From IMG/VR virus record IMGVR_UViG_3300006921_000202, positions 1-21,329 of that record: DNA of 21,329 bases; one strand, written 5' to 3'. Shown in pieces: positions 1-17,082 of the stretch; position 1 is the first letter of the stretch, and the number at the start of each line of letters is the position of its first letter. This DNA comes from a virus. A program made the position numbers and the translations under genes. The notes under the pieces are model-generated. The model was not told the DNA's origin, made no database searches, and saw only the letters and a program-made list of their open reading frames with translations.

Positions 1-782
1 CTAACATTATTCAGTAAACCGGTCGTTCCGGTATCCGCAGCATCTGTCCAGTGGAATTTGATTGTGTTGTTGTGTTGAGAAAGTTTGAAAGAATCTCCAC
101 TACCTCCAGTAAAACCACCACCACTGGTGCTGCCAGCAGTCTCACCACTTTCAGGGCCGGTATATCCTTGATTTGTGCTTGTATCCAACTTCGCAATAAT
201 GAGTTTATCGTTCTGGTACATCTGTGGCCAGATCCATCCGCTGATTAACCAGTTGTCTAGGGTAGAACCATCGTATCCTCCGCGAGAAGGTAAAACAATA
301 TTACCAGCATTTTCAAATCTGATAGTTTCCATAGCACAGGACTGTGTAATACCACTCCACTTCAGACCTGGAGGTGGATACGTTTGCATTACTCCACCAT
401 AGAAAGGAGATTTTATAGGGTTACTTGCATCGGGATCGTTCCGGGTGTGTGCCCTAATTTTATCAATCTCAACTCGTTCGTCGTGTGTGAAATTACCACA
501 CCCAAGAATCGCTCTGTAATACCAACCATCGTCACCACATCCACCTGCTGATGCACGGCGTTGTGTTGGGATGTCCATTGTTCCTCTAGGATCAAATCCT
601 TGAAGATTTGGGTTTGAGGTATTAAGTCTATCGAATAACTCTTGATCCATTGTAAAGACGCTATATGCTTTCTTCGATCTATACATCGAAGAGTTTTCTC
701 GTTCATCTAAAATGTCTACAATCCTGCCAGTTTTAGAATCTACGACAATTTGCTTTACTTTGTTGTTGAGAGTTTTAGCCAT
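1..782 (-). CDS. Laminin-G/concanavalin-like structural protein, partial (C-terminus beyond window)
   Basis: The frame is open from an ATG at 782 to the window edge, giving 260 residues (start MAKTLNNKVKQIVVDSKTG). The first ~130 residues match no fold I recognise and include two Cys (82, 95) in a Gly/Asp-rich stretch. Residues ~148-260 read like the first strands of a LamG_3 / concanavalin-type sandwich: SCAMETIRFENAGNIVLP (148-165), the core strand NWLISGWIWPQ (177-187), then KLIIAKLD and FKLSQHNNTIKFHW. These folds in phage fibres usually bind glycans or mediate trimer contacts, so a receptor-binding or decoration role is inferred. A Gly/Ser-rich loop (215-230) interrupts the sandwich. The gene lies 15 nt after the beta-helix spike gene; AAGGG 12 nt upstream is a weak ribosome site. 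A shorter ORF at 413-706 in another frame is a shadow. The frame is certain, the fold moderately so. Confidence 0.8.
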   Translation of the reverse strand, partial: MAKTLNNKVKQIVVDSKTGRIVDILDERENSSMYRSKKAYSVFTMDQELFDRLNTSNPNLQGFDPRGTMDIPTQRRASAGGCGDDGWYYRAILGCGNFTHDERVEIDKIRAHTRNDPDASNPIKSPFYGGVMQTYPPPGLKWSGITQSCAMETIRFENAGNIVLPSRGGYDGSTLDNWLISGWIWPQMYQNDKLIIAKLDTSTNQGYTGPESGETAGSTSGGGFTGGSGDSFKLSQHNNTIKFHWTDAADTGTTGLLNNV

Positions 783-797
783 CTAGTTCAATTACCC

Positions 798-3700
798 TTA
801 ATCAATGTTGGAAGGTTCTATGTTGGAAGAAGAATCTACCGCCCACTTTGTTGCAGAATTTGGTGTCACTGGATCTGTTGTTTGTTCTATCACACCAGTC
901 TTATTTATAAGAGAACCGAATCTAGAAAGACCGTGTGCGATTGACATCCCAGAATAAATCTTCGGAACAGAAAGTATACTAGTAGCAGTTTCAGTCCCAG
1001 CATTGACTGTGCGTCCAATGAATGAGATCGACTTAGTGCAGTTTACAACCGAATCATTAGTAGCAGAGAAGTTATAGTGTGCATTATCATATGCTTTAGC
1101 ACTAGTTGCTGAAACATTTGAGTTCATATTAGCACTATATCCACCGCGTGTTCTGATTGCTGCACTTCTGCGTGCATTAATACTAGAGTTCATTGATGCG
1201 TAAAATCCTGCTCCTGCACATCCTCTTGCAAATGCATAGTCAACGTCTAAGTTAGAATTTTCTAGTGCCATGTATGCTTGGTTTCTTAGCAATGAAACAT
1301 AAGATCTTTCTGCTTTAATTGAAGAATTATTATATGCTAAGAATCCGATACCCATTGGATGATCTACGAATCGATACAGTGTAGTGTCTGGAACTACGTC
1401 ATTACAAGGTCGAGTGCATGTTCCTGCATTGTCTGTACCGGGTGGACATTCACAGTCACCGTCAGTGCAGTCACTGCATTGTACATACCCAATATCAGTA
1501 TTACCATTTGGACAATCATCTCCGTTGACATCATCTCCACATGAGGCGTTATTGCAATAACATGGTTTACCAGTGGTTGAATCTGTGCAATCTCCACCCG
1601 GACAGTTACAGCAGCAACCGTGTCCGCCACAGTTTACTGGGAGGTCGCAATTCACGTCGCAACATTCTGCTGGTTGATCTCCGTTACATTCACAGGCATC
1701 CGGGTTCTCGCAGCAGAAAGATTCTTCTTCATCTACGCAAGCACATTGACAAGCACCGCCGGTGTTGTTGCACCCTGTACACCATTGACAGAAATCATCA
1801 CCACCAGACGGCGCACATTGTGCCAGGCACGGATCTTCTATACATTCACATTCTTCCTGCGAAGCACAACACGGTGGTTCACCCTCACCACCCCATTCGG
1901 GGCATCCGTTGTTTTCATTACAGAAATAGTCTTCACATGCACAGCACCTGTCTTCGTTATTACAGTTTTGAACCTGGCAGGTGTTATCGTCTCCCGTTCC
2001 ATCACCACCACATTGGGTAGAATTGCATCCACACTGGCCTGTGCAGGAGACCCCACCGTCATCGCCTCCCGTTCCATCACCACCTTCACCGTTACCACCG
2101 CCTTCGCCGCCACCTCCTGCGCCTTGTCCACCGCCGCTGCCGTCGACCGGATCGCTACCACCACCGTCTTGGACACCACCTTCATTAAGGTTTACTGGTC
2201 CATCTGCATCTAAATCATATCTATCCCCAATATAACCGGGAGGTATACAAACACCACCAGAAATATCTTGGTTGCTAGTACCACATGCATCAACTGGTGT
2301 GTATGTGGTTGGAAGACTTTCTTCTGGTAATACTCCTGCCCCAACTCCATAAACCTGAGTACCACCAAGTGTAAGTATTCGTGGAGGTGGTACTTCGTTA
2401 CCAGAGTCATCTGGTGGTATTGTAGTTTCCTCGCCGAGTGGAGCAACTGCTCTCAAGTAAATTTGATTTCCTGTAGTGAACGGGTAATAGTTATATGCAT
2501 CTCTAACCGAATCGGACATCTTGTTGTATGGTTTTAAGTATGAGTTCCATACAACTTGAACGTAAGACACTTGACTATTAGGTTGCACAAGTGATAATCT
2601 TTCACCTTGATTCAACGTGGAAATGGAGGTGCCTGGTTGATCCAAGTCAATTGTTAGTGGACTGTAACCAGCAGAGGCAACAATACTATTTGTTGCCGAG
2701 ATGGACGATGTGCCATTTGCAAGAACACCTGCAATATCACATCCAGTTATTACTGATTGCTTTGCATAGATTGCTGAGTTTTGTTCTGCAACCATACCAA
2801 AGGAACAGTCTGAAATTGCAACCCGATCGGTGTGGATCACTGAGTCGGTGTGTGCTGCCATTCCCGCATAAAATCCACAGATGCCAATGTTAGTACATGC
2901 TTGGGAACCCAACGAAGAATTTTTATATACAAGAATTCCTTCTCCACCAGATGCTGCCGGATTCATTTCATTGAAATGCTTATATCTAACATCACCTTGA
3001 AAAACTATATTACTAAGTGAAGCCAGACTACTGTTTGGTTTTACAACCAGACCCTTTAATGGTTTTCCGGGTCCAGATGCAATTGATCTTCTGTATTTAA
3101 ATACTGTCTTTATTATGGATGCCTCGATACGGTGATCGGATATAACAGTTCCGATTGTCGGATCGATTCCGCTGGTTGTTGTTGATCCATACTTACCCGT
3201 TGGATCTCCTGTTTCATGTGATGCCTCTCCCGGAGCATTTCTATATCCACCAACATAGATACCATCATCAACTGAAAATGATCCATCATCCGCATTGATC
3301 TTTGAACCACCAAGTCGGTGTAAGAAATTTTTTCCTCTTGATCTAAAAGTAACTGTATTATCTGATGAATTTACTCCGATAATCTCAAAACACCCAAGAA
3401 CATTAGTCCGGGCATCTCCGGTGGCACCAGTAATTCCTTCGGATGCAACTGATCCATCAACTTGTGATGGGTAGTATCCGCCATTAATGTTCGTTCTATC
3501 CCGAAGCATCATATAGTCACCTACTTCGATGCCAGTTGTACTTGGTGCAACTGTTGACGTTGTTGGGAAAGAAGCAGTATCGGCCAACTTTACTGTAATT
3601 CTATTATCAACAAGAGAACCGTTACCAAAACCATTATTGTTTTCAACTGCATCATACTGATAGTTTGTAACTTCTTGTAGATAAAAACCCAACGGAGTTT

Positions 3701-3983
3701 CGCCAGCAATACTAATACCTTTATGACTTGTATTGTTTATTTGAATAGACGTTGTAAGATCATACGTTCCCTTGAGACAACGAACAATTGCATGTCCTCT
3801 ATCAGTAAAGAACATACGTTCAATATTATTCAACGCTCTACCGGGAGTGTAAAATGGATTGGTTAAACTACCATCACCATCAATATCACTACCACTAGGT
3901 GAACAATAGAATGTAGTAACAGTGTCAATTACATTGACATTAAATCCACCCTGCGGAATTCTAATTGCACTTTGATCAGCCAT
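798..3983 (-). CDS. Beta-helix tail spike/fibre with Cys-rich insertion
   Basis: A 1061-residue structural protein, probably a trimeric spike or side fibre on the tail. The N-terminus (22-95) has the usual start of pectate-lyase-like phage beta-helices: YCSPSGSDIDGDGSLTNPF, then a predicted helix (RALNNIE) and GTYDL. Coils of ~22-24 residues follow the pattern Gly-x-x-Ala-x3-Ser-x-Ile-x-Ala-x2-Ser-x-Ile. They are visible at 349-440, with stacked Cys 369, 393 and 415, and again at 877-990. Between these blocks sits a 436-residue insertion (441-876). It holds a calcium-type loop (590-601), a Gly/acid-rich linker (602-644) and a domain with 46 Cys in 214 residues (647-860). Beta-helix spikes commonly bind or cut host surface polysaccharide; no catalytic residues can be assigned here. 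AGGAG lies 14 nt before the ATG and overlaps the previous gene's stop. The fold is well supported, enzymatic activity unknown. Confidence 0.85.
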   Translation of the reverse strand: MADQSAIRIPQGGFNVNVIDTVTTFYCSPSGSDIDGDGSLTNPFYTPGRALNNIERMFFTDRGHAIVRCLKGTYDLTTSIQINNTSHKGISIAGETPLGFYLQEVTNYQYDAVENNNGFGNGSLVDNRITVKLADTASFPTTSTVAPSTTGIEVGDYMMLRDRTNINGGYYPSQVDGSVASEGITGATGDARTNVLGCFEIIGVNSSDNTVTFRSRGKNFLHRLGGSKINADDGSFSVDDGIYVGGYRNAPGEASHETGDPTGKYGSTTTSGIDPTIGTVISDHRIEASIIKTVFKYRRSIASGPGKPLKGLVVKPNSSLASLSNIVFQGDVRYKHFNEMNPAASGGEGILVYKNSSLGSQACTNIGICGFYAGMAAHTDSVIHTDRVAISDCSFGMVAEQNSAIYAKQSVITGCDIAGVLANGTSSISATNSIVASAGYSPLTIDLDQPGTSISTLNQGERLSLVQPNSQVSYVQVVWNSYLKPYNKMSDSVRDAYNYYPFTTGNQIYLRAVAPLGEETTIPPDDSGNEVPPPRILTLGGTQVYGVGAGVLPEESLPTTYTPVDACGTSNQDISGGVCIPPGYIGDRYDLDADGPVNLNEGGVQDGGGSDPVDGSGGGQGAGGGGEGGGNGEGGDGTGGDDGGVSCTGQCGCNSTQCGGDGTGDDNTCQVQNCNNEDRCCACEDYFCNENNGCPEWGGEGEPPCCASQEECECIEDPCLAQCAPSGGDDFCQWCTGCNNTGGACQCACVDEEESFCCENPDACECNGDQPAECCDVNCDLPVNCGGHGCCCNCPGGDCTDSTTGKPCYCNNASCGDDVNGDDCPNGNTDIGYVQCSDCTDGDCECPPGTDNAGTCTRPCNDVVPDTTLYRFVDHPMGIGFLAYNNSSIKAERSYVSLLRNQAYMALENSNLDVDYAFARGCAGAGFYASMNSSINARRSAAIRTRGGYSANMNSNVSATSAKAYDNAHYNFSATNDSVVNCTKSISFIGRTVNAGTETATSILSVPKIYSGMSIAHGLSRFGSLINKTGVIEQTTDPVTPNSATKWAVDSSSNIEPSNID
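902..909 (-). promoter_or_regulatory. T4-type late promoter box TATAAATA
   Basis: On the minus strand the bases read exactly TATAAATA, the T4 late-promoter consensus used by a gp55-like sigma factor. The box is in the 3' end of the spike gene, ~120 nt before the ATG of the laminin-G-like gene and in the right orientation. It would give that gene its own late transcript in addition to read-through. It was the only exact match I found by eye on either strand. Confidence 0.5.
1014..1355 (-). repeat. Beta-helix coils after the insertion (residues 877-990)
   Basis: About five coils continue the same pattern (FLAYNNSSIKAERS, FYASMNSSINARRS, YSANMNSNVSATSA, NFSATNDSVVNCTKS). They show that the region between 441 and 876 interrupts one continuous beta-helix. 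Confidence 0.65.
1404..2045 (-). other. Cysteine-rich domain of the spike (residues 647-860)
   Basis: Forty-six of 214 residues are Cys, by hand count. Five units fit CxCx4C exactly (starting at 651, 681, 712, 792 and 808) and two fit CxCx7C (747 and 764). The motif CCx5CEC occurs twice (705-714, 757-766). Units begin roughly every 16-36 residues. The filler is Asn, Gly, Asp, Glu and Pro with almost no aliphatic residues, so the fold would have to be held by disulfides or bound metal rather than a hydrophobic core. The even number of Cys allows complete pairing. Confidence 0.85.
1986..2084. repeat. 24-nt direct repeat pair in the spike insertion
   Basis: Bases 1986-2009 and 2061-2084 are identical at 23 of 24 positions and lie 75 nt (25 codons) apart. 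On the coding strand they specify GGDGTGDD and GGDGTGGD. They flank the junction of the Gly-rich linker and the Cys-rich domain and suggest in-frame duplication. Confidence 0.8.
2052..2180 (-). other. Gly/acid-rich linker of the spike (residues 602-644)
   Basis: Residues 602-644 are almost entirely Gly, Asp, Glu, Ser and Asn, including runs such as GGGGEGGGNGEGGDGTGG. A flexible or polyglycine-like tether joining the Cys-rich domain to the beta-helix is the natural reading. The coding DNA is unusually GC-rich: 43 of 60 bases in 2101-2160 are G or C, against 23 of 60 in 2461-2520 of the same gene. Confidence 0.75.
2181..2216 (-). other. EF-hand/dockerin-type calcium loop in the spike (residues 590-601)
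   Basis: The twelve residues DLDADGPVNLNE satisfy the canonical loop: Asp at 1, 3 and 5, Gly at 6, an aliphatic residue at 8, Asn at 9 and Glu at 12. It directly precedes the Gly-rich linker. Flanking helices are not evident, so this would be a lone calcium loop, as in some adhesins, not a full EF-hand pair. Confidence 0.5.
2664..2939 (-). repeat. Beta-helix coils before the insertion (residues 349-440)
   Basis: Four successive coils of about 22-24 residues share Gly-x-x-Ala near the start and Ser-x-Ile pairs. Three of them end near a Cys (369, 393, 415), which would stack as a ladder in a parallel beta-helix. Confidence 0.65.
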
Positions 3984-5244: not shown

Positions 5245-8200
5245 TCAGAAAGATGAAAGTGCTACTCGTTTCCATGTGTTCCCCTCAACACACACATAGA
5301 AGTGTGTGCTACTCCACGCAATATCTCCGGTGTTTCCAGTGTCCGAAGCAGATACAGGAATATCAGGTCCGGTTCCACCAGAACCTTCGTCAGAACCGAG
5401 TCGGAATCTTCCCTTCGCATCAAAACTTGCTCTCTCTATACCATCAGTATCGAAAGACATCTTGTTTGTACTGTGTGTGTATTTGATCTGTCCTTCGTCT
5501 ACATCACCGGCAGAGTTGTGGAATCTTACAGATCCTGTTTTGCTTCCTAGAGATCGAACTTCGATTGCAGGATCTCCGGTTCCGTGACATACTATCTTAG
5601 TATCTGAACCGTAAACATAGAGATCAGAGTCAACAGAGGCATCTGGATCTGTGCAACTTGAACCAACGGCAAGTTTACCAGAGAACGATCCTGTTGAACC
5701 GAAACTAATTCCTATCAACGATGCTGTTATACCATGAGATCTAAGTGAACCCTTAACATCCAAAGATGCTCCGGGTGCGTTTGTGCCGATTCCAACATCG
5801 CCATCCATGTATGCAATATCGGGTGCATGATTTTCCCATTGTGAGAACGTGACACCTTGGAATGTTGTTCCGGAACTACCATCAGAAAGTAGTGCAGCAG
5901 ATGCTCCAGCAGGCGCTCCTGTTGGTAAGGTATATCCGTCAGTTCCACTATTGGTTACTTCGATAGATATTGTCTTCATTGTTCCCTGAACATCTAGAGA
6001 TGCTCCGGGAGCAGTCGTACCGATACCGATTCTGTGTGCTGCGGAAGCACCAGCAGAAACTCCAATCGTAAAGACTGGTTCGTTATCGTTTCCTGTTACG
6101 ACTATACCTTCACCAGAAACTCCCTTAATTCGCATGAAGTTTTCTGTGGTGGAATCTTCGTAGATATTAATCTGTGCGGTTATTCCATCGAGTCGAATTC
6201 CATTTGTCAAACCACCACCAGAACCTCCGATGTGGAGTCTAGACTGTGGATCTGAATTATTGATTCCGAGGAATCCGCCAGTTCCGAGACGCATTCGCTC
6301 AGTTCCTGTTACATCTACTGTACTCTGGGAAGCAGCAAAGATAAGATCTTCGCCGCTGTTTGGTCTGAGATCTCGGATCAGTGGTTTAAAATCATGATAA
6401 CCATCGTCACCATCAGTATCGTAGATGAGAATGTCACCATCAGAAACTCCCGTGTCATACACGTTTGTAAGTTCACCGGCAGTCAGTGCTACATCAAGTC
6501 CATTGATGAGCGATGCTTTTGCTGCTGATGTGAGTTTGATGATGTAGTTCACAACACCGTATGGTTGCATGTTGTTGTGACTGATACTCTCTCCTGTGTT
6601 ATCCAATCCAAGTGTATCGAAGTCCGTTGAGATATTACCTTCGATTGGAACATCACCAGTTCCATCCTCAGTTTGGAGATTCAGAGATCCTGCGGCGAAT
6701 GATGCATTACCGATGATATCGAGTTGACCTATACTCGGATCTAGTGGGGTATCGTTACTATTACTGAAAAGATCCTGAATGGGCGCGTTCGGGATTGGGA
6801 CACTGGAAGTAAATCTATATCCTGATCGATCTTCTCCAGAGAAACGATTTCTCGCCATATTCCGTTGATTACCGTTACCACATTCACCACACACGACATA
6901 GTTATCGACCACGCCGGTGGGGGTATTGGGTCTACCAACAAAGATACCATCTGTCTGTCCGTATTGTGGAGTGAAAAATTGACTATCATCATTATCGGCC
7001 GACATCGAATGTCCAACAACGTGAATGTGCTGCGGAACCTTGAGTCCCGTTGAGTTTACTGTTCCGGTTCCTGCGATCAGGATTTCACTGAGGTTCATGG
7101 TAAGATTTGCTTCAATTGATATCGAAGAATCGGCAGAAATTGCGTGGGTATGAACAGGAAGTTCTTGGACGGTAAGTTGATGAATTTCCTCACCACCTTC
7201 TTGTCCTAACTCATAATTGTAAATAGTGTTTGACGATCCACTACCATTTCCGACAATGGTTCTGCCACGAAGATCTGGTTTTCTAAATTCATTTGTTTCT
7301 TGTGACACAACATAGAAGGTTGCATTAATGTCATCGCCGACTGGAATATTATTAGAAGTAATAATAGTTAGCGTAGAGTGTTCAACACCTGTGCTATCTG
7401 TATCTTCTAGTGCGGGAAATCTTAAAACCGGATTGTCTGGAACAAGAACAGTTCCACCTGCACCCGCAATTTGCTTGGTGAGATGATCAACTGTAACCGT
7501 CATTGTATTTGTAGATTCATCCCAATCAGTAATGTCACCAGTGACAATTTCGGACCGTCCAAGTTCACCACCGATTGCATCGTAGATAAACGTGGATGTA
7601 ACTCTACCGCCTAATAGTGAATATGGAGATAAATCTACATCAAAACCATCCCGTCTCCCTATCACAAGTTTCTGTGTAAATCCGTATCGATTTCCGATGC
7701 GTGAATGAAGTTCGGGATATGATGTTGCAATTAAAGTTCCACCATCACACATACTCCAACCATCTGGCACATCATTTTGTTCTCCTGCGTATGGTGCAAT
7801 TACACCGGCAGGTTGAATACCTTCTAGACTTACTGTTGCTTCACCACCAATAAGTGTGCCGATATAATTTGTTACTAAACCTTTACCTTGCTCAGTTCTT
7901 GTAAGCATGGGTTTAATGACTGTACCACCGGCAGTCGGTGGTGCATCAATCAGTTTACCGTTAGATGTATCTGATAGGAACCATACTACCTTTTCTTCGT
8001 CATTAACTTCTTCCATTGCAGAAAGATCAATTTCACCCTGATACACAAGGGTAAATTGACTTGTACTGATTACCTTTTCAATCACACCAGATACTTCTGC
8101 GTTGATAGCAGAATTTGCTTGTGCCCCGGTGAATCCAGAAGTGGCAACATCCCAACGAACAACGTCCCCAGCAACAAATCCGTGTGTTGCTTGGGTTATG

Positions 8201-8284: not shown

Positions 8285-11200
8285 CTATTTAGTAATATTA
8301 TTCTTGAGTTCTGCATCGAATTCATATTCGGCAAGATATGTGGTATCAAGGGTAGTGGTTCCAGTATACGCCCTAGAAGGCATAAAACCTCTCTTTGTTA
8401 GGACTGGTACACCACCATAACCCAACGTCATGTCCTCGATTGATGCCGATCCCATATTCGCGCCGTCTATAATTGAAGTTGCTTTGACACAAGTTGGATT
8501 GATTCTCATCGGGGTTGCAAAGGTTGTGTAATTTCCGTATGTTCCCCGAATAGCAATGCTTGAGTTGTCAGCAGTTTCTTCACCTACAACACCATTCCAA
8601 CCACTCTGTGCAATCTGATAATACTTCTGACATGCTTCGAGATCGATTTCAGAAATTGGTGTCTGGAAGTTGGTTGCTTGCTGTCCGTGTTCTACCTGAA
8701 CCTGTGCGAGTGATAAGATACCATCATATGTCAGTCCGGTGGCAAATCCCTCAAGAGTTGCACCTAGTGAACTAGTAAATGATGCATTGTTATCACTAGA
8801 GTGAGTAATATATTTAAGATCAAAGAATGATGTGTCACCAATGCTAGTTCCTTGCAAGAATGCAGGTAATGATACTGTATGTGTAAACTTGTTCCAATCT
8901 GTACCAAGTCCAATATCTTGCACATGAATAGCGTTTCCTTCTGCGGTATTGCCAAGTGCTTGGTAGTCTTGAACAACTGCCACTCGAACATTTCCTGTTT
9001 TGGTTCCCTTTGCCCAATAACTAATGGTTACGTCTTTGTTCGCAAATCTACGGACGTTTTCAATTCTTTGTCCTACAGAAACAGTAGATTTATTTTCATT
9101 TCCAAAATTGGCATCAATATATCCTTGGAAGTTCAAGTAATGCTTAGGGTATCCGGGGACTGCTGTTTGTGCATCCAAGAATGTTCCTTGAGACATACCA
9201 CCAATAATATTAGAAACAGATCCCGATGATGTTAAATCTGGAATTACTTCTGCATTGAATCTATCTGCATGGAATGTATCATACTTAGATCCATCAGATG
9301 GGAAGTTCGTATCTAGAGTTGTTGGATCAGTGCCTCTCTGCCAGTGATCGAAGTTACTATTGATGATGAGGTTTCTTCCCTGTCGTCCAACAACAGGAGG
9401 AACCACTAAACCACCGTCTTCGATAAAGTATCCGAGGACTTCGACTTGCACAGAAAAGGTGTCTGTATAAGAGGGAGTTCCCTGATCTACATTATATGGT
9501 TTTCCAAGAGAAACTGCTATCTGTCCATTTGGATTTGAATTTTCAATTGGAACGATCTTTGTAAAGTTATTGGTATCAGCGTTAAAACTTTCCACTCCTG
9601 CATCTCTAGTAGATTGGGTGGCAATATTTTCAGTAGTTTCAAAATTGTTTGGGAAGTTCGCATTTGGAACACCAGCATAAACTTCTTCGAACCTACCAAT
9701 ACCTCTTCGCTTTACGTAAATCTTCACCATCATATGCGTGGCATTTGTTGGTGGTGTTATCTTTGTGAAGTAGTCACTGATGCTTGACCAGGCGCCTGTG
9801 TTGTTTGTATAATTATACTCAACCATATGTGGTTGACTGGTATTATCAGAAGATTCTGCTGTTCGACTGAAGAATATTCTGAACTTTTCATATGTCGAGA
9901 TTGCAGGATCATATGGAGACGGATTTGTTCCTGATGCTAAGAATGGCAGGGGAGCAGTTGGTGTTGCCTTCTTGAACATCAGTTTAGTTACTTTTTGTCC
10001 CTCGGTTGGGAAGAAAGTCTTACCTGTTAATGATCCGGTCTCTTCTGAATCCGAACCCGGTCCAGTCGGGGGCGCAGTATTTGTGGTGATTCTTCTGCCA
10101 ACATATGAAAGAACCAAACCCCGTGTGTTTGATGTCGCAATGAACATTGGTTTCTTAACCATACCCAGAGTTCTTGGATACTCAAGTCCAAGACTGCTTG
10201 CCGATGCAGCAGCAGTATTTGCGGTCAAGAAGTATACTCTTCCCGGTTCATATGTGTAGGGACCGTCTACAAGATCAACCCACCCTGAGTTTGTTAGATA
10301 GAATGCATCAGAAGATCCAGAAGCAGGAGTCACAACCTCACTGATAATTCCTTGTGTTTCAGCATCAACTTCGTTATTTGCCTGTGCTTTTTGATAAGTA
10401 CCAAAAGGTTGTGCTGAGTTCGTGATACCCGTATCAAATTTCATCACATCACCAACGGTGAATCCGTGATTTTCTTGATTAACAAGAAGTCGGTTTCCTT
10501 GTGCAACCACACCAGTCTCAATGGACTCTGCAATTTCACCACCAATATAACTTACGACGAATCCTGTATCCCCGGTCATACCAATCATCATTGGTTTTCT
10601 AACAAAACCAACCTGAGAATCAACTGGTGGGTTCTGCGAAAGCATTCCCGTAGCACCAGATGAAAGGAAGTATGCTTTACCAATTTCTAATGTATATCCA
10701 GAAGAAACATTATCGATGATCCTATCGAAGTTTCCTCTTACTTCACCTTGGAATGTAATGTCGAATGTTGTGTCGTCAATTACATCAGAAACAATACCAA
10801 CTGCTTCTGCTTGTTCTTTATTTGCAGCATAGGCCGCAGTAAATCCATTTCCGGTTGGTCTGACTGGCATACCAAAGGAAAGACCGTGTGCAGATGCTGT
10901 AGTTACTCTCTTCTTGTTAATACCGTGGTAGAAGTGTGCAAAACCATCTTCCGAAATTTCAGCAATATCGATGGGATTTGCTAATGTCGTGTTGTCATAT
11001 TGAAGAGAAACACTTCGGTGATCTCTAGTTATTCCACCGGCGTTGGTATGTCCGGGCGATGCAGTAAACCCAAGGATCATGACTTCGCATGATTCGCCAC
11101 CACCGATATGAATATTACCAGCAGTTCCTGTAACCAGGCCTCTACCATCACCAAATTCTATATTTTCGTTTGTTGTCCATGCACCAGTGTGACCACATGT

Positions 11201-11644: not shown

Positions 11645-11833
11645 TTAGTTTTCCTCTTTGATTAAATCACGGAGCAGAGTTTTGAGATAATCTACCTCTT
11701 GCCTTAGATTATGTATGTCTTTTTTCTGTCTTCTTTTTTCCAATGCTTCGTTCATCTTTGTTTTATTAACAAGAATCAAAGCACCAGTTTCTAAATCCCG
11801 TTCATAATTTTTATTGTCAGTTTTTGCTCTCAT
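11645..11833 (-). CDS. Small conserved coiled-coil protein
   Basis: A 62-residue protein, highly charged, with no signal peptide or membrane segment. Residues 9-25 (NYERDLETGALILVNKT) resemble a short protein I have seen in other marine phages near tail genes; this is memory, not a search. Residues 40-57 form a clean parallel coiled-coil heptad: I40, L43, V47, L50, L54 and L57 at a/d positions. The ATG overlaps the stop of the 1750-aa gene as ATGA, which implies translational coupling. A GGTGG ribosome-site-like sequence lies inside the final codons of that gene. Its stop codon is 3 nt before the 1118-aa fibre gene. A small oligomerising connector or fibre-assembly factor would fit, but the function is unknown. 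The tight packing, overlap and heptad argue that it is real despite its size. Confidence 0.75.
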   Translation of the reverse strand: MRAKTDNKNYERDLETGALILVNKTKMNEALEKRRQKKDIHNLRQEVDYLKTLLRDLIKEEN

Positions 11834-14800
11834 ATCAATGCCACCACTCGAAGATCTTTAACTTGTGGTACAACTGAAGTATCTTCAGAGAACATGAGAA
11901 CCTTAATCTGCAAGGTTGCAAATGCCTGGACATCCTTTAATAATTTATAACTTGTTTCTGTAAACTCAAATGGATTGTCTGTTTCTGTTACTTCATTTAC
12001 TTGTTCTAATTGATAGAAAGGTTCTTCTGCAATTTCTTTATATGTTGTGGGCGGTAATGTCCGACAATATACCTCAATTGTTGTGCCAATCGGTCGATTG
12101 AGATCTAACATTACTCGAACATCATCTCCGTTTTCTTGGAGTTTGATTGATCGAGTCAAGTACCTAGCAACCGCAGAATCTGTGTAAGTTCCGGAACCAG
12201 TATATTCTCCACCACCAGAAGCGTCGTTAACAATATTTTCTACGGTAATAACAGTAAGATTTTTCGTATCAACAACAGGAGTTATGGTGGATGAGGATGG
12301 ATTCGAAATTTCAATTGTGTGCGTTGTTTGTTGTTCGGAAGATCCACCCGTAGCAGCAATGAGTTGACTGCTTGGGAACGTGTAGTTTTGATTTTGTGGT
12401 ACTTGGAAAGTAGTAGATGAAGTACCAAAAGTCAATTTATGAACTACGGATGTACTCGGTAAAATTAATTCGTTCGATATAATTTTTGTGAGGTTGACAT
12501 TAGTAGGTACGCCAGGTTCAGACAAATTGATTTGAAGTGTTCCCGGTGCAGTTGTAAATACGCACCGATTGATTTCACACATAAGTGAGGTCGAAGTATC
12601 TTCCTCTGCAACATTTGTATTCTGTGGTAAGAAAAGACTTCCCATATTCGGGTGCTTGGTAATAATATTACCAGTCAGAGAATCTTCTAAACCAACATTA
12701 CCTGTATAGACTTTATAGTCATCTGTATTAGACACTATACTTAATGAATAGTTTCCGGGTTGCAGATATACTGGTGACGAGAATTTGAAGTTTGTTGCAC
12801 TTGGGACATCATTACCAATTATAACTTCACTTGGATATAGAGTAACTTCCGAGAAAGGAATGATTGACGAAGCAGATGGGTATCCGCTGACAGTTGGTCT
12901 GATCTGTATTGTTACTGGTAAGGTTTCAGACTTACTGGAAAAGTATAGATTTATATCGTTTAAGAATACACCATTTGAATGAAGATTGGAGGACACTGTA
13001 AAGATCTGTGATAATGGATCAATCCACTGTGTTTCCAATGATAGGTTGAGTGAGTCCTCTCTAGTGTATACATCCCGGACGATCTTTTCGCTAGTTACTG
13101 TTTGTCTTCGGAGAACAAGTGGTCGAGTAGCACTGAATGTAGTGTCGGTTGTACTCTGTACACCTTGTGCATAGAAATCTCCTTCTGCTGAAGTCTCTGC
13201 ATCTGCGGCAGTGTTTGTTGACGAGTCAGTAAGTCTAAAGACCTTCTCTCCAGTCAGATACTTCTTTGGAGGAACAGCAAACTGGAGATTATCAATTTTA
13301 CCGAAAGAATCGGTTTGGATTGTACCACCAAGAGAACCACCACTAGGAGTGCAGAATTGACTTACATCGTCACCATCAAAGAATGGAATTACAATTGAAT
13401 TTGGTTTTAGATTTTCTGCTTTGATCGTTAGTGTTGAAGATCTAATGAATGGCACGACACTTACATCGATAATCTTATCGTTTACTCGTTTCTTTAATGT
13501 ATCAGGAACACTACCCAGTCTAATATTAAGTCTAGACTTTCTTTGATCTATAGTCTTTGCGATGTTTGATACAGAAGAAACATTCTTCTCAATTCGAGAT
13601 GCAATGAATATGTCGGAGTTTGTTCTTCTCGCTTGCTCTAGGAATCGCTCACCAACAACATTCTGTAGTTTGTCGTCGATGTTTTCAATACCAGACCAAA
13701 TACTAGACCATTCATTCCACTGAGTTCCGAATCCTCTGGAATCATTAAAGTTGTTAACCTTCCAGTTATCATTGGAACCCATGTCATTAATTTTAACGAC
13801 TGGACGAACTGATGTAGAGAACCATTGATCTGATGGTGGATCAATTTCCAAACGACCAATCCAGTTAATTAAGTCAAACTGATTTACAGAAATAAATCCG
13901 TTACTAAGAGATTGAGATACAATCGGTTGGGTGTCTGTTATCTTTGAGTGAATGAGTCCATCACTTGATTGTTGTAGATTATCCCCGATTACTAATGTCG
14001 TGGTATCAAGAGCATGATTTGTTTCTGCAAATCCGGGTCTAAGAGTGGAATTTTCGTAATCAATCGAACAGGCATATTTACTATCTGCTACATCGCCGAG
14101 TCCATGTCCCGCGAATGTATCTACTACGATTCCAACCTTCTCACCAATAACACCGGGTTCCGTACTCTTTTCTATATCCATTGCTTCGATTTCATTTTCG
14201 ATCAAGGATAGTTTGGTGTAAATTTCTAGATCATCAACTCGCTTCTCGACTCTACCAATATCTGACATTGTGTATCGATTGTTTTCGATATACTTAACTG
14301 CAACATCGGATGCATTGTGCGTGTATGGTGGCATCGCAATTGTGTATAGGGTCATCGAATCTGGTCTGTCTGCGGGTGCGACTGGTGAAAGATCCGGGAC
14401 ACCTTCGATGATATCAAAGTTAATATCATCACCAAAGGTTTGTCTTGCGACAATTTTGTCGATTCTTGCTTGGTAGTATGTGTGTGATTCTTCTATACTC
14501 ACCAGATTATCTTCTGGAACAACATGACCCCCAAGTTCGCCGCCCACAGGACCACTATGTCGGAAATCGATACATGATGCAAGAGAAGTTGTTTTACCTA
14601 AACTATTACTTGCAAACAGAGGAATGTCACCATAAGTAATACCAGCATAGGATTCTACAGTAAACGGACCAACCGATCCACTGTGCTGGAAGTAATCATA
14701 TGTTACTCCGAATGGAAGACTCAATATTCCGGTCGCAGGGTTATCCTCATTTGTTTCAATGTATTTGCTAAACTTCTCTGGTTTAATATACAATCTTCCG

Positions 14801-17082
14801 TTGATGTAACGTGTCTCTCTCTGACCGTCATCAAACAAGAAGTCACCCGGTTCACCCTCACTCATATGGGTTATTTTGTTAACATCAAATTTATTCATTT
14901 CAACGTACCAAATTGGATCTTGTCCCGTGCCTTCGTTCTTCAGATCCCCTGCACCAAACTCTTGGTAATTGTTCGTAAATGTTTTACTTCTGATTGTAGG
15001 TGAAGTAATATTTGCATCAGAAGCACCCTTATCTTGTGCAACGATTGGAGCAATCAACAAGTATTGGTTATCTCCATTACCGTCGCTGGGAATGGATATT
15101 GTAAGAGTTTTTCCATCGGAGGATCTGGTATAAACGGGTCTACTGTTGACATCATTATAGTAGTAATCTACTACTTCATATGGTAATCCATCTCCGGGTT
15201 TTGCCATAAGAATGTAGTCATTATTATTTGTGATGATTTCATCACCAGATTCATTAAAGAATTGATGCACACCATCGGGATCTGTTGCAACAGAAAGATT
15301 CCACGTTGCTACGTTATTTGCGTCTGTTGTGATTAATTGAGATCTTGTATAAACATATCTTAATTGATCAATTGATTTTACTGCTTTACCTTGAGGAACT
15401 TCAAATACTAATCCCGAGTTTTTAATATCTCGTAATGTCTGATCCGTATCTGATGTGTTCGATATGTTCCGAATTAATTTGAGTGTTGGGAAATCATTGT
15501 CTAAAATATTCGCTGATTCTCGACCCACTCCCGGCGTCATATATGTTGCATTTGGTAGTGTACTTAGAGCATTGCTTGCTGGTTCAAACGACTCGACATA
15601 CATTCTATAAACATATTGAGAATCAATATCACCACCATCGTGACGCTGTGGCCAGACATCAGGATTATCTCTACCAGAAAGATTTGCTACATCATCTTCT
15701 CTCTTAAATGCATGAACCCTAGCAGTTCCAATTAATTGAAAAGCACCATCCCAAAGTTGCACGGCCGCTGACGTTGTTATTATATTATTTCCATCATCAG
15801 GGTTTACAAGAGTGTTAAAGAATGATCTGTTACCATCCCATTCAGTACCATCCCCAACCGGAGTTGGTCCCTGCCCGTTGGCATTAACTTCAACACCAAC
15901 AAAGTAGGATCCTAGTTTTGCACCGGGTAACTTAGTTAGAGAAGATGTAGCAGTGGATCGTGATTTGTTAACATCCAAGAACTGTGGTGACTGTGTTTCG
16001 TATTCATATCCATAAAGATATGCCTTGCCTGGTTGCAATACAGATACCAGTTTGGCCGAATCCCCGCCGCGATCAGATGTATAAACACCACGGTTCGTCC
16101 CATTATTCAGGTGTTCTCGTAAATCAATCTCGAATGGTTTTACTGTGTATGATCCGGATTCATCGTATGTTCGTCTTGCAAGAGTCTTCTCTAACTCTGC
16201 ATAATCTGTATAGAGAGTCTTGAAAATTACCTTACCAATATCAAATCTAACAAGTTCGATAAAGTTTTTAGTGGTTGCAATATCGGTAACAAATCCCAGA
16301 TTAAGATCAATCTTATAACGATCTGCGCCAGGTGCATTGTAGTTATATGATCCAGAGGCGGGATCTCTTAGAGTGGCATCATCGCCTTCTGTTGCAACAC
16401 TTCTGCGAACACTGAAACCAACACTACCACTGGGGGTATCAAATTCTCTAGTTCCATCTCCAGTAAATCCGTAGATAGAAGTCGATTGCTTATCAGTTTT
16501 TACAAAGAACCCATCAGTATAGAAAATACCGGGACTGGTTGTGATAACTTTACATCTTCCCTGTACACCGTTAACCACGGTTGCATCGGTGGTGTCGCTA
16601 GAAACTGCTGCAATTTCACCTGCTCCAGTTCCACCAACAAAGGTGGATCCGAACGTGCCTCCGGGTTGGAAAGTATTTCCCTGAAGGAAGTTTACATACA
16701 GAAGATCATAGTCATCAACAGTCGAACTCGGAGTTCTTTCATAGTGAACGACTCTAGCACTAACATTTTCCGTTGTGCCTCCATCAGTCTTAATTTGACT
16801 GATATCGTACCCACCAATTTGATCTAGACTAGCACCCTTGACAACTCGAATATAAGAACAGTTCTGAACGGACTGATCACCGCCGATGATCTTTGCACCA
16901 TCTTCGAAGATGTGATCACCCATCCTAGAAACTTGGTTCTGGAGGATGCTTTGGAGTTGAGTGAGTTCTCTTGCTTGAACTGCATATCCAGGTCTAAAGA
17001 GGACTCTAAGAAACTTCTTGTCTTCGTCGTAGTCGTCATAGTATGGATCTATGTTCAGTAATGTCGGATCGTATGATGCCAT
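11830..17082 (-). CDS. Very large DUF4815-type virion structural protein
   Basis: A 1750-residue protein, the largest here. Its N-terminus (YDPTLLNIDPYYDDYDED, FLRVLFRPGYAVQARELTQL, LQNQVSRMGDHIFEDGAKI) is that of the DUF4815 family found beside baseplate genes in marine T4-like phages. Around residues 894-975 are a conserved-looking APADRPDSMTLYTIAMPPYT segment and a charged helix (RVEKRVDDLEIYTKLSLIEN) likely to form a coiled coil. Residues ~1434-1462 (SPVYLQPGNYSLSIVSNTDD) look like a beta-sandwich strand pair. The rest is beta-rich, with Ser/Thr-rich linkers. It follows gp8 in the position of T4 gp9/gp10, so a peripheral baseplate or fibre-connector role is inferred. No enzymatic motif was seen. 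It starts 13 nt after gp8 with AAGGTGG 8 nt upstream, and ends in a 4-nt overlap with the 62-aa gene. The family call is firm, the function is not. Confidence 0.85.
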   Translation of the reverse strand: MASYDPTLLNIDPYYDDYDEDKKFLRVLFRPGYAVQARELTQLQSILQNQVSRMGDHIFEDGAKIIGGDQSVQNCSYIRVVKGASLDQIGGYDISQIKTDGGTTENVSARVVHYERTPSSTVDDYDLLYVNFLQGNTFQPGGTFGSTFVGGTGAGEIAAVSSDTTDATVVNGVQGRCKVITTSPGIFYTDGFFVKTDKQSTSIYGFTGDGTREFDTPSGSVGFSVRRSVATEGDDATLRDPASGSYNYNAPGADRYKIDLNLGFVTDIATTKNFIELVRFDIGKVIFKTLYTDYAELEKTLARRTYDESGSYTVKPFEIDLREHLNNGTNRGVYTSDRGGDSAKLVSVLQPGKAYLYGYEYETQSPQFLDVNKSRSTATSSLTKLPGAKLGSYFVGVEVNANGQGPTPVGDGTEWDGNRSFFNTLVNPDDGNNIITTSAAVQLWDGAFQLIGTARVHAFKREDDVANLSGRDNPDVWPQRHDGGDIDSQYVYRMYVESFEPASNALSTLPNATYMTPGVGRESANILDNDFPTLKLIRNISNTSDTDQTLRDIKNSGLVFEVPQGKAVKSIDQLRYVYTRSQLITTDANNVATWNLSVATDPDGVHQFFNESGDEIITNNNDYILMAKPGDGLPYEVVDYYYNDVNSRPVYTRSSDGKTLTISIPSDGNGDNQYLLIAPIVAQDKGASDANITSPTIRSKTFTNNYQEFGAGDLKNEGTGQDPIWYVEMNKFDVNKITHMSEGEPGDFLFDDGQRETRYINGRLYIKPEKFSKYIETNEDNPATGILSLPFGVTYDYFQHSGSVGPFTVESYAGITYGDIPLFASNSLGKTTSLASCIDFRHSGPVGGELGGHVVPEDNLVSIEESHTYYQARIDKIVARQTFGDDINFDIIEGVPDLSPVAPADRPDSMTLYTIAMPPYTHNASDVAVKYIENNRYTMSDIGRVEKRVDDLEIYTKLSLIENEIEAMDIEKSTEPGVIGEKVGIVVDTFAGHGLGDVADSKYACSIDYENSTLRPGFAETNHALDTTTLVIGDNLQQSSDGLIHSKITDTQPIVSQSLSNGFISVNQFDLINWIGRLEIDPPSDQWFSTSVRPVVKINDMGSNDNWKVNNFNDSRGFGTQWNEWSSIWSGIENIDDKLQNVVGERFLEQARRTNSDIFIASRIEKNVSSVSNIAKTIDQRKSRLNIRLGSVPDTLKKRVNDKIIDVSVVPFIRSSTLTIKAENLKPNSIVIPFFDGDDVSQFCTPSGGSLGGTIQTDSFGKIDNLQFAVPPKKYLTGEKVFRLTDSSTNTAADAETSAEGDFYAQGVQSTTDTTFSATRPLVLRRQTVTSEKIVRDVYTREDSLNLSLETQWIDPLSQIFTVSSNLHSNGVFLNDINLYFSSKSETLPVTIQIRPTVSGYPSASSIIPFSEVTLYPSEVIIGNDVPSATNFKFSSPVYLQPGNYSLSIVSNTDDYKVYTGNVGLEDSLTGNIITKHPNMGSLFLPQNTNVAEEDTSTSLMCEINRCVFTTAPGTLQINLSEPGVPTNVNLTKIISNELILPSTSVVHKLTFGTSSTTFQVPQNQNYTFPSSQLIAATGGSSEQQTTHTIEISNPSSSTITPVVDTKNLTVITVENIVNDASGGGEYTGSGTYTDSAVARYLTRSIKLQENGDDVRVMLDLNRPIGTTIEVYCRTLPPTTYKEIAEEPFYQLEQVNEVTETDNPFEFTETSYKLLKDVQAFATLQIKVLMFSEDTSVVPQVKDLRVVALI

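Follow-up and report, generated by a model that had tools for sequence, protein, structure and literature searches.

The window, by which we mean the whole stretch of DNA analyzed (a 21,329-base virus record in IMG/VR), encodes on its minus strand a tail-fibre cassette that opens with a gene for a VrlC/DUF4815 baseplate protein and that includes a large tailspike ORF with an unusual concentration of Cys residues. The relevant features, of which the beta-helix rungs are predicted, are

11830-17082, minus strand: VrlC/DUF4815 baseplate protein, opening the tail-fibre cassette (family matches)
798-3983, minus strand: tailspike ORF of 1061 aa with 57 Cys (ORF translation and homologues)
2643-3056, minus strand: upstream beta-helix rungs, aa 310-447 (match of the C-terminal-part profile to aa 376-442, AF2 strands, and a weak Beta_helix match)
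1380-2321, minus strand: whole Cys-rich module, aa 555-868, with 48 Cys, including the conserved C567-x11-C579 (homologue alignment)
2046-2225, minus strand: linker, aa 587-646, Gly-rich in close relatives (sequence and alignment)
1404-2045, minus strand: Cys core, aa 647-860, with 46 Cys, hypervariable between the Cys (sequence, alignments, dN/dS, and nucleotide identity)
1020-1376, minus strand: downstream beta-helix rungs, aa 870-988 (profile and AF2 strands)

The VrlC protein is ~29-36% identical to VrlC of Kyanoviridae, those of Pelagibacter phage Mosig and of Prochlorococcus phages being the nearest. Based on the VrlC/DUF4815 and gp8-like genes, we placed the phage with Kyanoviridae-like T4 relatives, and the gene order of VrlC, fibres, and neck matches that of pelagiphages and cyanophages. 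The terminase of the relative L009 is 74% identical to that of Marine virus AG-345-P14, and the relatives indicate that the phage group is probably of marine origin. A cyanobacterial host, considered by way of psbA, was set aside because the related contigs yielded no psbA. The 128-kb relative G005 encodes a Porin_O_P-type protein (L024:12313-13338, minus strand), which might hint at the host and had no match in the phage and plasmid records, as well as a trypsin-like protein (L024:3908-4714, plus strand) and a long run of genes that by eye appear to concern sugar nucleotides, glycosyltransferases, and methyltransferases (L025:10390-20000 and L026:1-3966). In the window, the gene after the spike gene (3-782, minus strand) is truncated by the window end; its counterpart in L009 (L009:7023-9089, plus strand) has a large product that includes a Laminin_G_3 (concanavalin-like lectin) domain and is possibly a partner adhesin.

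The initial annotation had reported 46 Cys among the 214 residues at aa 647-860, and both this count and the coordinates were exact; the other 847 residues of the spike contain 11 Cys, and the Cys content of the remaining window ORFs is 0-1.2%. The domain limits given there hold for the core and not for the full extent, as the module also takes in C567-x11-C579 and the linker, with 48 Cys over aa 555-875. A wrong reading frame as the source of the Cys was rejected, because the two alternative frames across the core contain stops (4 and 27) and few or no Cys (0 and 9), showing that the spike frame is the right one. The core is also acidic, with 41 D/E vs 3 K/R, and contains a single His.

A profile of the part of the spike that follows the Cys-rich insert matches aa 376-442 ahead of the insert (i-E 2e-4; 0.013 in L008), and NSxI/V-type motifs recur approximately every 23 residues on either side. 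AF2, run with six sequences on a single chain, placed short strands at aa 310-447 and 870-988, mostly with pLDDT 50-80. Thus, the repeated ~20-25-residue rungs of a beta-helix tailspike are indicated by the profile and, at moderate confidence, by the AF2 strands, while the Pfam matches to Beta_helix (15.6 bits vs a cut-off of 25.9, E=0.013) and TSP_Ig-like (15.6 bits vs 27.9, E=0.02) place the spike in no known beta-helix or tailspike family above a curated cut-off. Because like rungs of ~23 residues lie on either side of the Cys domain, we read the protein as a right-handed beta-helix that is interrupted by an insert consisting of the conserved C-x11-C, then the linker, and then the Cys core. 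AF2 left the core unfolded (the full spike and the Cys module each had a mean pLDDT of 38); when the module was modeled alone, ~45 residues (spike ~706-751) reached pLDDT ~57-75 with small helices, and the remainder was not resolved. In BFVD, a phage tail fibre protein gave the best structural match of the spike, with E=1.4e-4 and a low TM-score. Foldseek searches of the PDB returned nothing at E<0.001 for the single-chain AF2 spike model and no match whatever for the AF2 model of the Cys module. In the relatives, the spike gene is located within the tail-fibre gene cluster, between the VrlC/DUF4815 and neck genes. Gene order, the rung profile, and the VrlC neighbor support that the protein is very probably a tail spike within a phage tail-fibre cassette, as originally annotated.

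A Cys-rich insert is present at the same spike position on six other IMG/VR contigs (spike identities to the window of 94% for L002, 79% for L003 and L004, 55% for L009 and L010, and 48% for L008) and in every relative retrieved using N-terminal or C-terminal patterns; a further fragment, L014, repeats the L009 sequence. Because these six contigs derive from several metagenomes, we rejected a misassembly or chimera, which the initial annotation had named as a concern. The domain therefore exists and recurs in several lineages, and it sits between beta-helix-like rungs in a tail-fibre cluster. Over aa 555-875, the distinct homologues have 48, 48, 50, 46, and 44 Cys, i.e., an even number every time, but these represent four distinct cases (44, 46, 48, and 50), for which the probability by chance is ~1 in 8. 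When the most diverged homologues, L008 and L009, are included in the alignment, 30 of the 72 columns holding any Cys are invariant. Because many Cys columns do not align in these two, the fold of their Cys domain may differ from that in the window.

The spike and its core had no significant match in Pfam, PHROGs, NCBIfam, or the PDB sequences. Specifically, the Cys core had no match in Pfam at E up to 10, and the A4 profile had none among the PDB sequences at E up to 5; weak PDB sequence matches, which were to antibody light chains (best E=0.11), were rejected as chance. Using tblastn with the spike, we found no match in 50,697 phage records or in plasmids, in searches in which the BLAST low-complexity filter may hide some matches, and a pattern-limited search of GTDB genomes was likewise empty. 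Known Cys-rich extracellular domains in Pfam, including EGF and granulin, gave no profile match, and the literature searched, which was mostly outside subscription journals, contained no report of a phage tail domain rich in Cys. The proposal that no described phage domain has this pattern thus held up in Pfam, PHROGs, NCBIfam, the PDB, and cultured phages, and, in phages, a concentrated Cys domain on a tailspike has apparently not been described before. The same searches bear on the possibility that the domain was captured from a host or a eukaryotic Cys-rich adhesin and acts by mimicry. Some stretches do look EGF- or granulin-like by eye; the lack of any match in Pfam, NCBIfam, the PDB sequences, or GTDB (a pattern-limited search of non-eukaryotic genomes) leaves this possibility, which had been listed among three readings of the domain, without support, and we consider it highly improbable.

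The Cys were initially described as following repeated CxCx4C / CxCx7C units, which is an overstatement. In comparison with shuffled sequences of equal Cys content (46 of 214 residues), the core has about as many CxC as expected (10 vs 9.6), CxxC is scarcer than by chance (5 vs 9.5), and CxCx4C is slightly more frequent (5 vs 1.95, P=0.037 uncorrected). TRF reports no tandem repeat across the core DNA. Since the CxC frequency equals that expected by chance for such a Cys content and TRF is empty, we rejected a tandem CxC repeat; the spike core is a Cys-dense domain and not a regular CxC repeat. CxxC is the pair favored by metal sites and redox centers, and the enrichment of CxC or CxxC pairs that would mark a metallothionein or a metal-thiolate domain is not seen in the core. 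If the domain were of that type, the Cys would bind Zn, Cu, or Fe-S, stay reduced, and either stabilize the spike or sense metal. The Cys density and the acidity of the core would suit such a function, and iron-loaded phage spikes exist by way of HxH motifs, according to work cited in PMC10811340. However, with CxC at chance level, CxxC depleted, one His in the core, and no metal-binding match in Pfam, a metal-loaded domain, the second of the three readings, is not supported, and we regard it as improbable.

The Cys of the core are conserved among homologues to a greater extent than the residues between them. Relative to L002, 46 of 46 Cys columns are common at a core non-Cys identity of 79%, and relative to L003/L004, 45 of 47 are common at 54%. 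The Cys codons differ from those of L003 by 13 synonymous changes, with 1 codon lost or moved. By hand arithmetic, if the Cys sites changed at the rate of the other sites, the probability that 46 of 46 Cys are kept at 79% site identity would be ~2e-5, a value that overstates the case because Cys is in general more conserved than the average residue. These comparisons support that the core Cys are selectively retained, beyond what is expected by chance.

Between the Cys, the dN/dS of the core is 0.96 relative to L002 (dS 0.16; one close pair), vs 0.14 in the C-terminal part of the spike, and 0.54 relative to L003. The dS of the flanks is 0.03-0.05, and that of the core is 3-6 times higher. Nucleotide identity drops to 83-91% in the core stretch vs 95-100% in the flanks, and this drop is confined to the core stretch. 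Over the 21-kb alignment with the nearest relative, G001, in which the median divergence is 1.3%, three hot spots stand out: the one at 1501-2400 is the Cys insert, and those at 9301-10200 and 6601-7200 are in neighboring tail genes, which encode proteins of 1118 aa and 1005 aa (collar domain). The observation that dS and dN are both raised in the insert suggests that this segment is exchanged as well as diversifying. A variable, diversifying stretch is the usual picture for receptor-binding regions, and from the position and variability of the insert, we infer that it may bind a receptor.

Based on these data, we favor, at slightly better than even confidence, that the insert is a diversifying receptor-recognition domain that is scaffolded by disulfides, carried by a beta-helix tailspike, and oxidized after lysis. 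The domain, an adhesin, would be spliced into the right-handed beta-helix body of the spike and protrude from it. Its shape would be held by ~23-24 disulfide bonds and not by a large hydrophobic core, in which case the surface between the Cys could vary freely while the frame is kept. No signal peptide is evident in the spike; its folding and assembly would therefore take place in a reduced state in the host cytosol, and the Cys would pair once the virion meets oxygenated water after lysis. We found no thioredoxin or glutaredoxin genes in the incomplete contigs of the relatives, and thus the phage gives no indication of redox control.

This chemistry has a precedent in phages of bacteria. Cryo-EM shows dense disulfide networks in the virions of phages Milano (PMC10811340) and 7-7-1 (PMC12796354), and in Milano, the tail spike itself holds disulfides (PMC10811340). 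The premise that a disulfide domain would be unexpected in a phage protein was therefore too strong. The even Cys counts (a weak argument), the depletion of CxxC, the single His, and the Milano/7-7-1 precedent favor disulfides formed after lysis, and, with the Cys also retained among homologues, a post-lysis disulfide domain is the best supported of the three readings in the initial annotation. The disulfides might instead serve mainly for stability by linking the three spike chains, or the spike to its neighbors, with recognition located elsewhere. Disulfides of the Milano spike and short fibre do join chains and neighbors (PMC10811340), and the retention of the Cys among homologues would fit this function as well. 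However, the neighboring tail proteins are Cys-poor, the Cys being gathered in a single variable insert; an even number of Cys in each chain is consistent with pairing within the chain; and a clamp with a purely structural role would not need to be a hot spot of variation. We therefore consider a stability function rather unlikely and prefer a disulfide-braced domain for receptor recognition.

Two other Cys-dense proteins were found in tail clusters of related phages. In G005 (L029:14884-17616, minus strand), the gene next to that of a gp5-like baseplate hub encodes a protein of 910 aa, in which 128 of the 129 Cys lie from residue 240 on; its sequence shows CC pairs in close succession as well as a GACC motif at the C-terminus. 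This protein is also present on three other contigs, had no match in Pfam, PHROGs, NCBIfam, the PDB, or cultured phages, and displayed no detectable homology to the spike Cys core. In Marine virus AG-345-P14 (L045:1209-2057, plus strand), the tail-gene region encodes a 282-aa protein with 26 Cys soon after a partial VrlC-side gene. One IMG/VR homologue (L050, 73% identity) keeps 24 of these Cys and lacks C103 and C253, so that, as in the window core, Cys density goes along with Cys retention; unlike the window core, the 282-aa protein is not inserted in a beta-helix, and the Cys profile detects no sequence relation between the two. Counting the spike core, the tail clusters of these related uncultured phages contain three Cys-dense proteins that are unrelated to each other.

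The spike insert is a real and conserved domain, apparently one not yet described, on a protein of an otherwise familiar kind, and the mechanism proposed for it would have wider implications. Tentatively, and at distinctly less than even confidence, such inserts may represent an undescribed receptor-binding class, in which a disulfide-knotted, hypervariable insert on a beta-helix spike made in the cytosol does not stiffen until it has been released into oxygenated water. If so, then, given the unrelated Cys-packed tail proteins of related phages, disulfide domains of an extracellular style would be a strategy for adhesion that recurs in this phage group. Because the binding domains of uncultured phages match nothing, how these phages recognize their hosts is mostly unread. 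A disulfide-braced variable domain would mean that phages share a design principle with Cys-rich binders of animals, i.e., a fixed frame with free loops, and raises the question of whether the redox jump at lysis is used by a phage as a folding switch.

Among known systems, the window spike has in common with P22 gp9-type, pectate-lyase-like right-handed beta-helix tailspikes the rungs of ~23 residues and the place in a tail-fibre cassette; unlike these, it carries a Cys-rich insert of ~300 residues, scores below the Pfam cut-offs, and has no homologue in cultured phages. The Kyanoviridae MED4-213, HTVC008M, Mosig, and S-WAM1 have the order of gp8-like gene, VrlC/DUF4815, fibres, and neck that is found in the group of the window, whereas none of these four sampled tail regions has a homologue of the spike or its Cys core. 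Their tail-region ORFs have at most 9 Cys/100 aa vs 25 in the case of the window, in agreement with the initial assessment that a domain so rich in Cys is unusual in a phage tail. With Milano and 7-7-1, the window spike would share disulfides in a virion protein and, in the case of Milano, in a tail spike (PMC10811340, PMC12796354). In those two phages, the Cys are spread over the sheath, baseplate, or capsid, where they link subunits, and are raised across many virion proteins; in the window, they are packed in one domain, and no comparable rise is seen in the other proteins. If the proposed mechanism is correct, the spike would represent another way, besides the Milano network, in which virions use disulfides.
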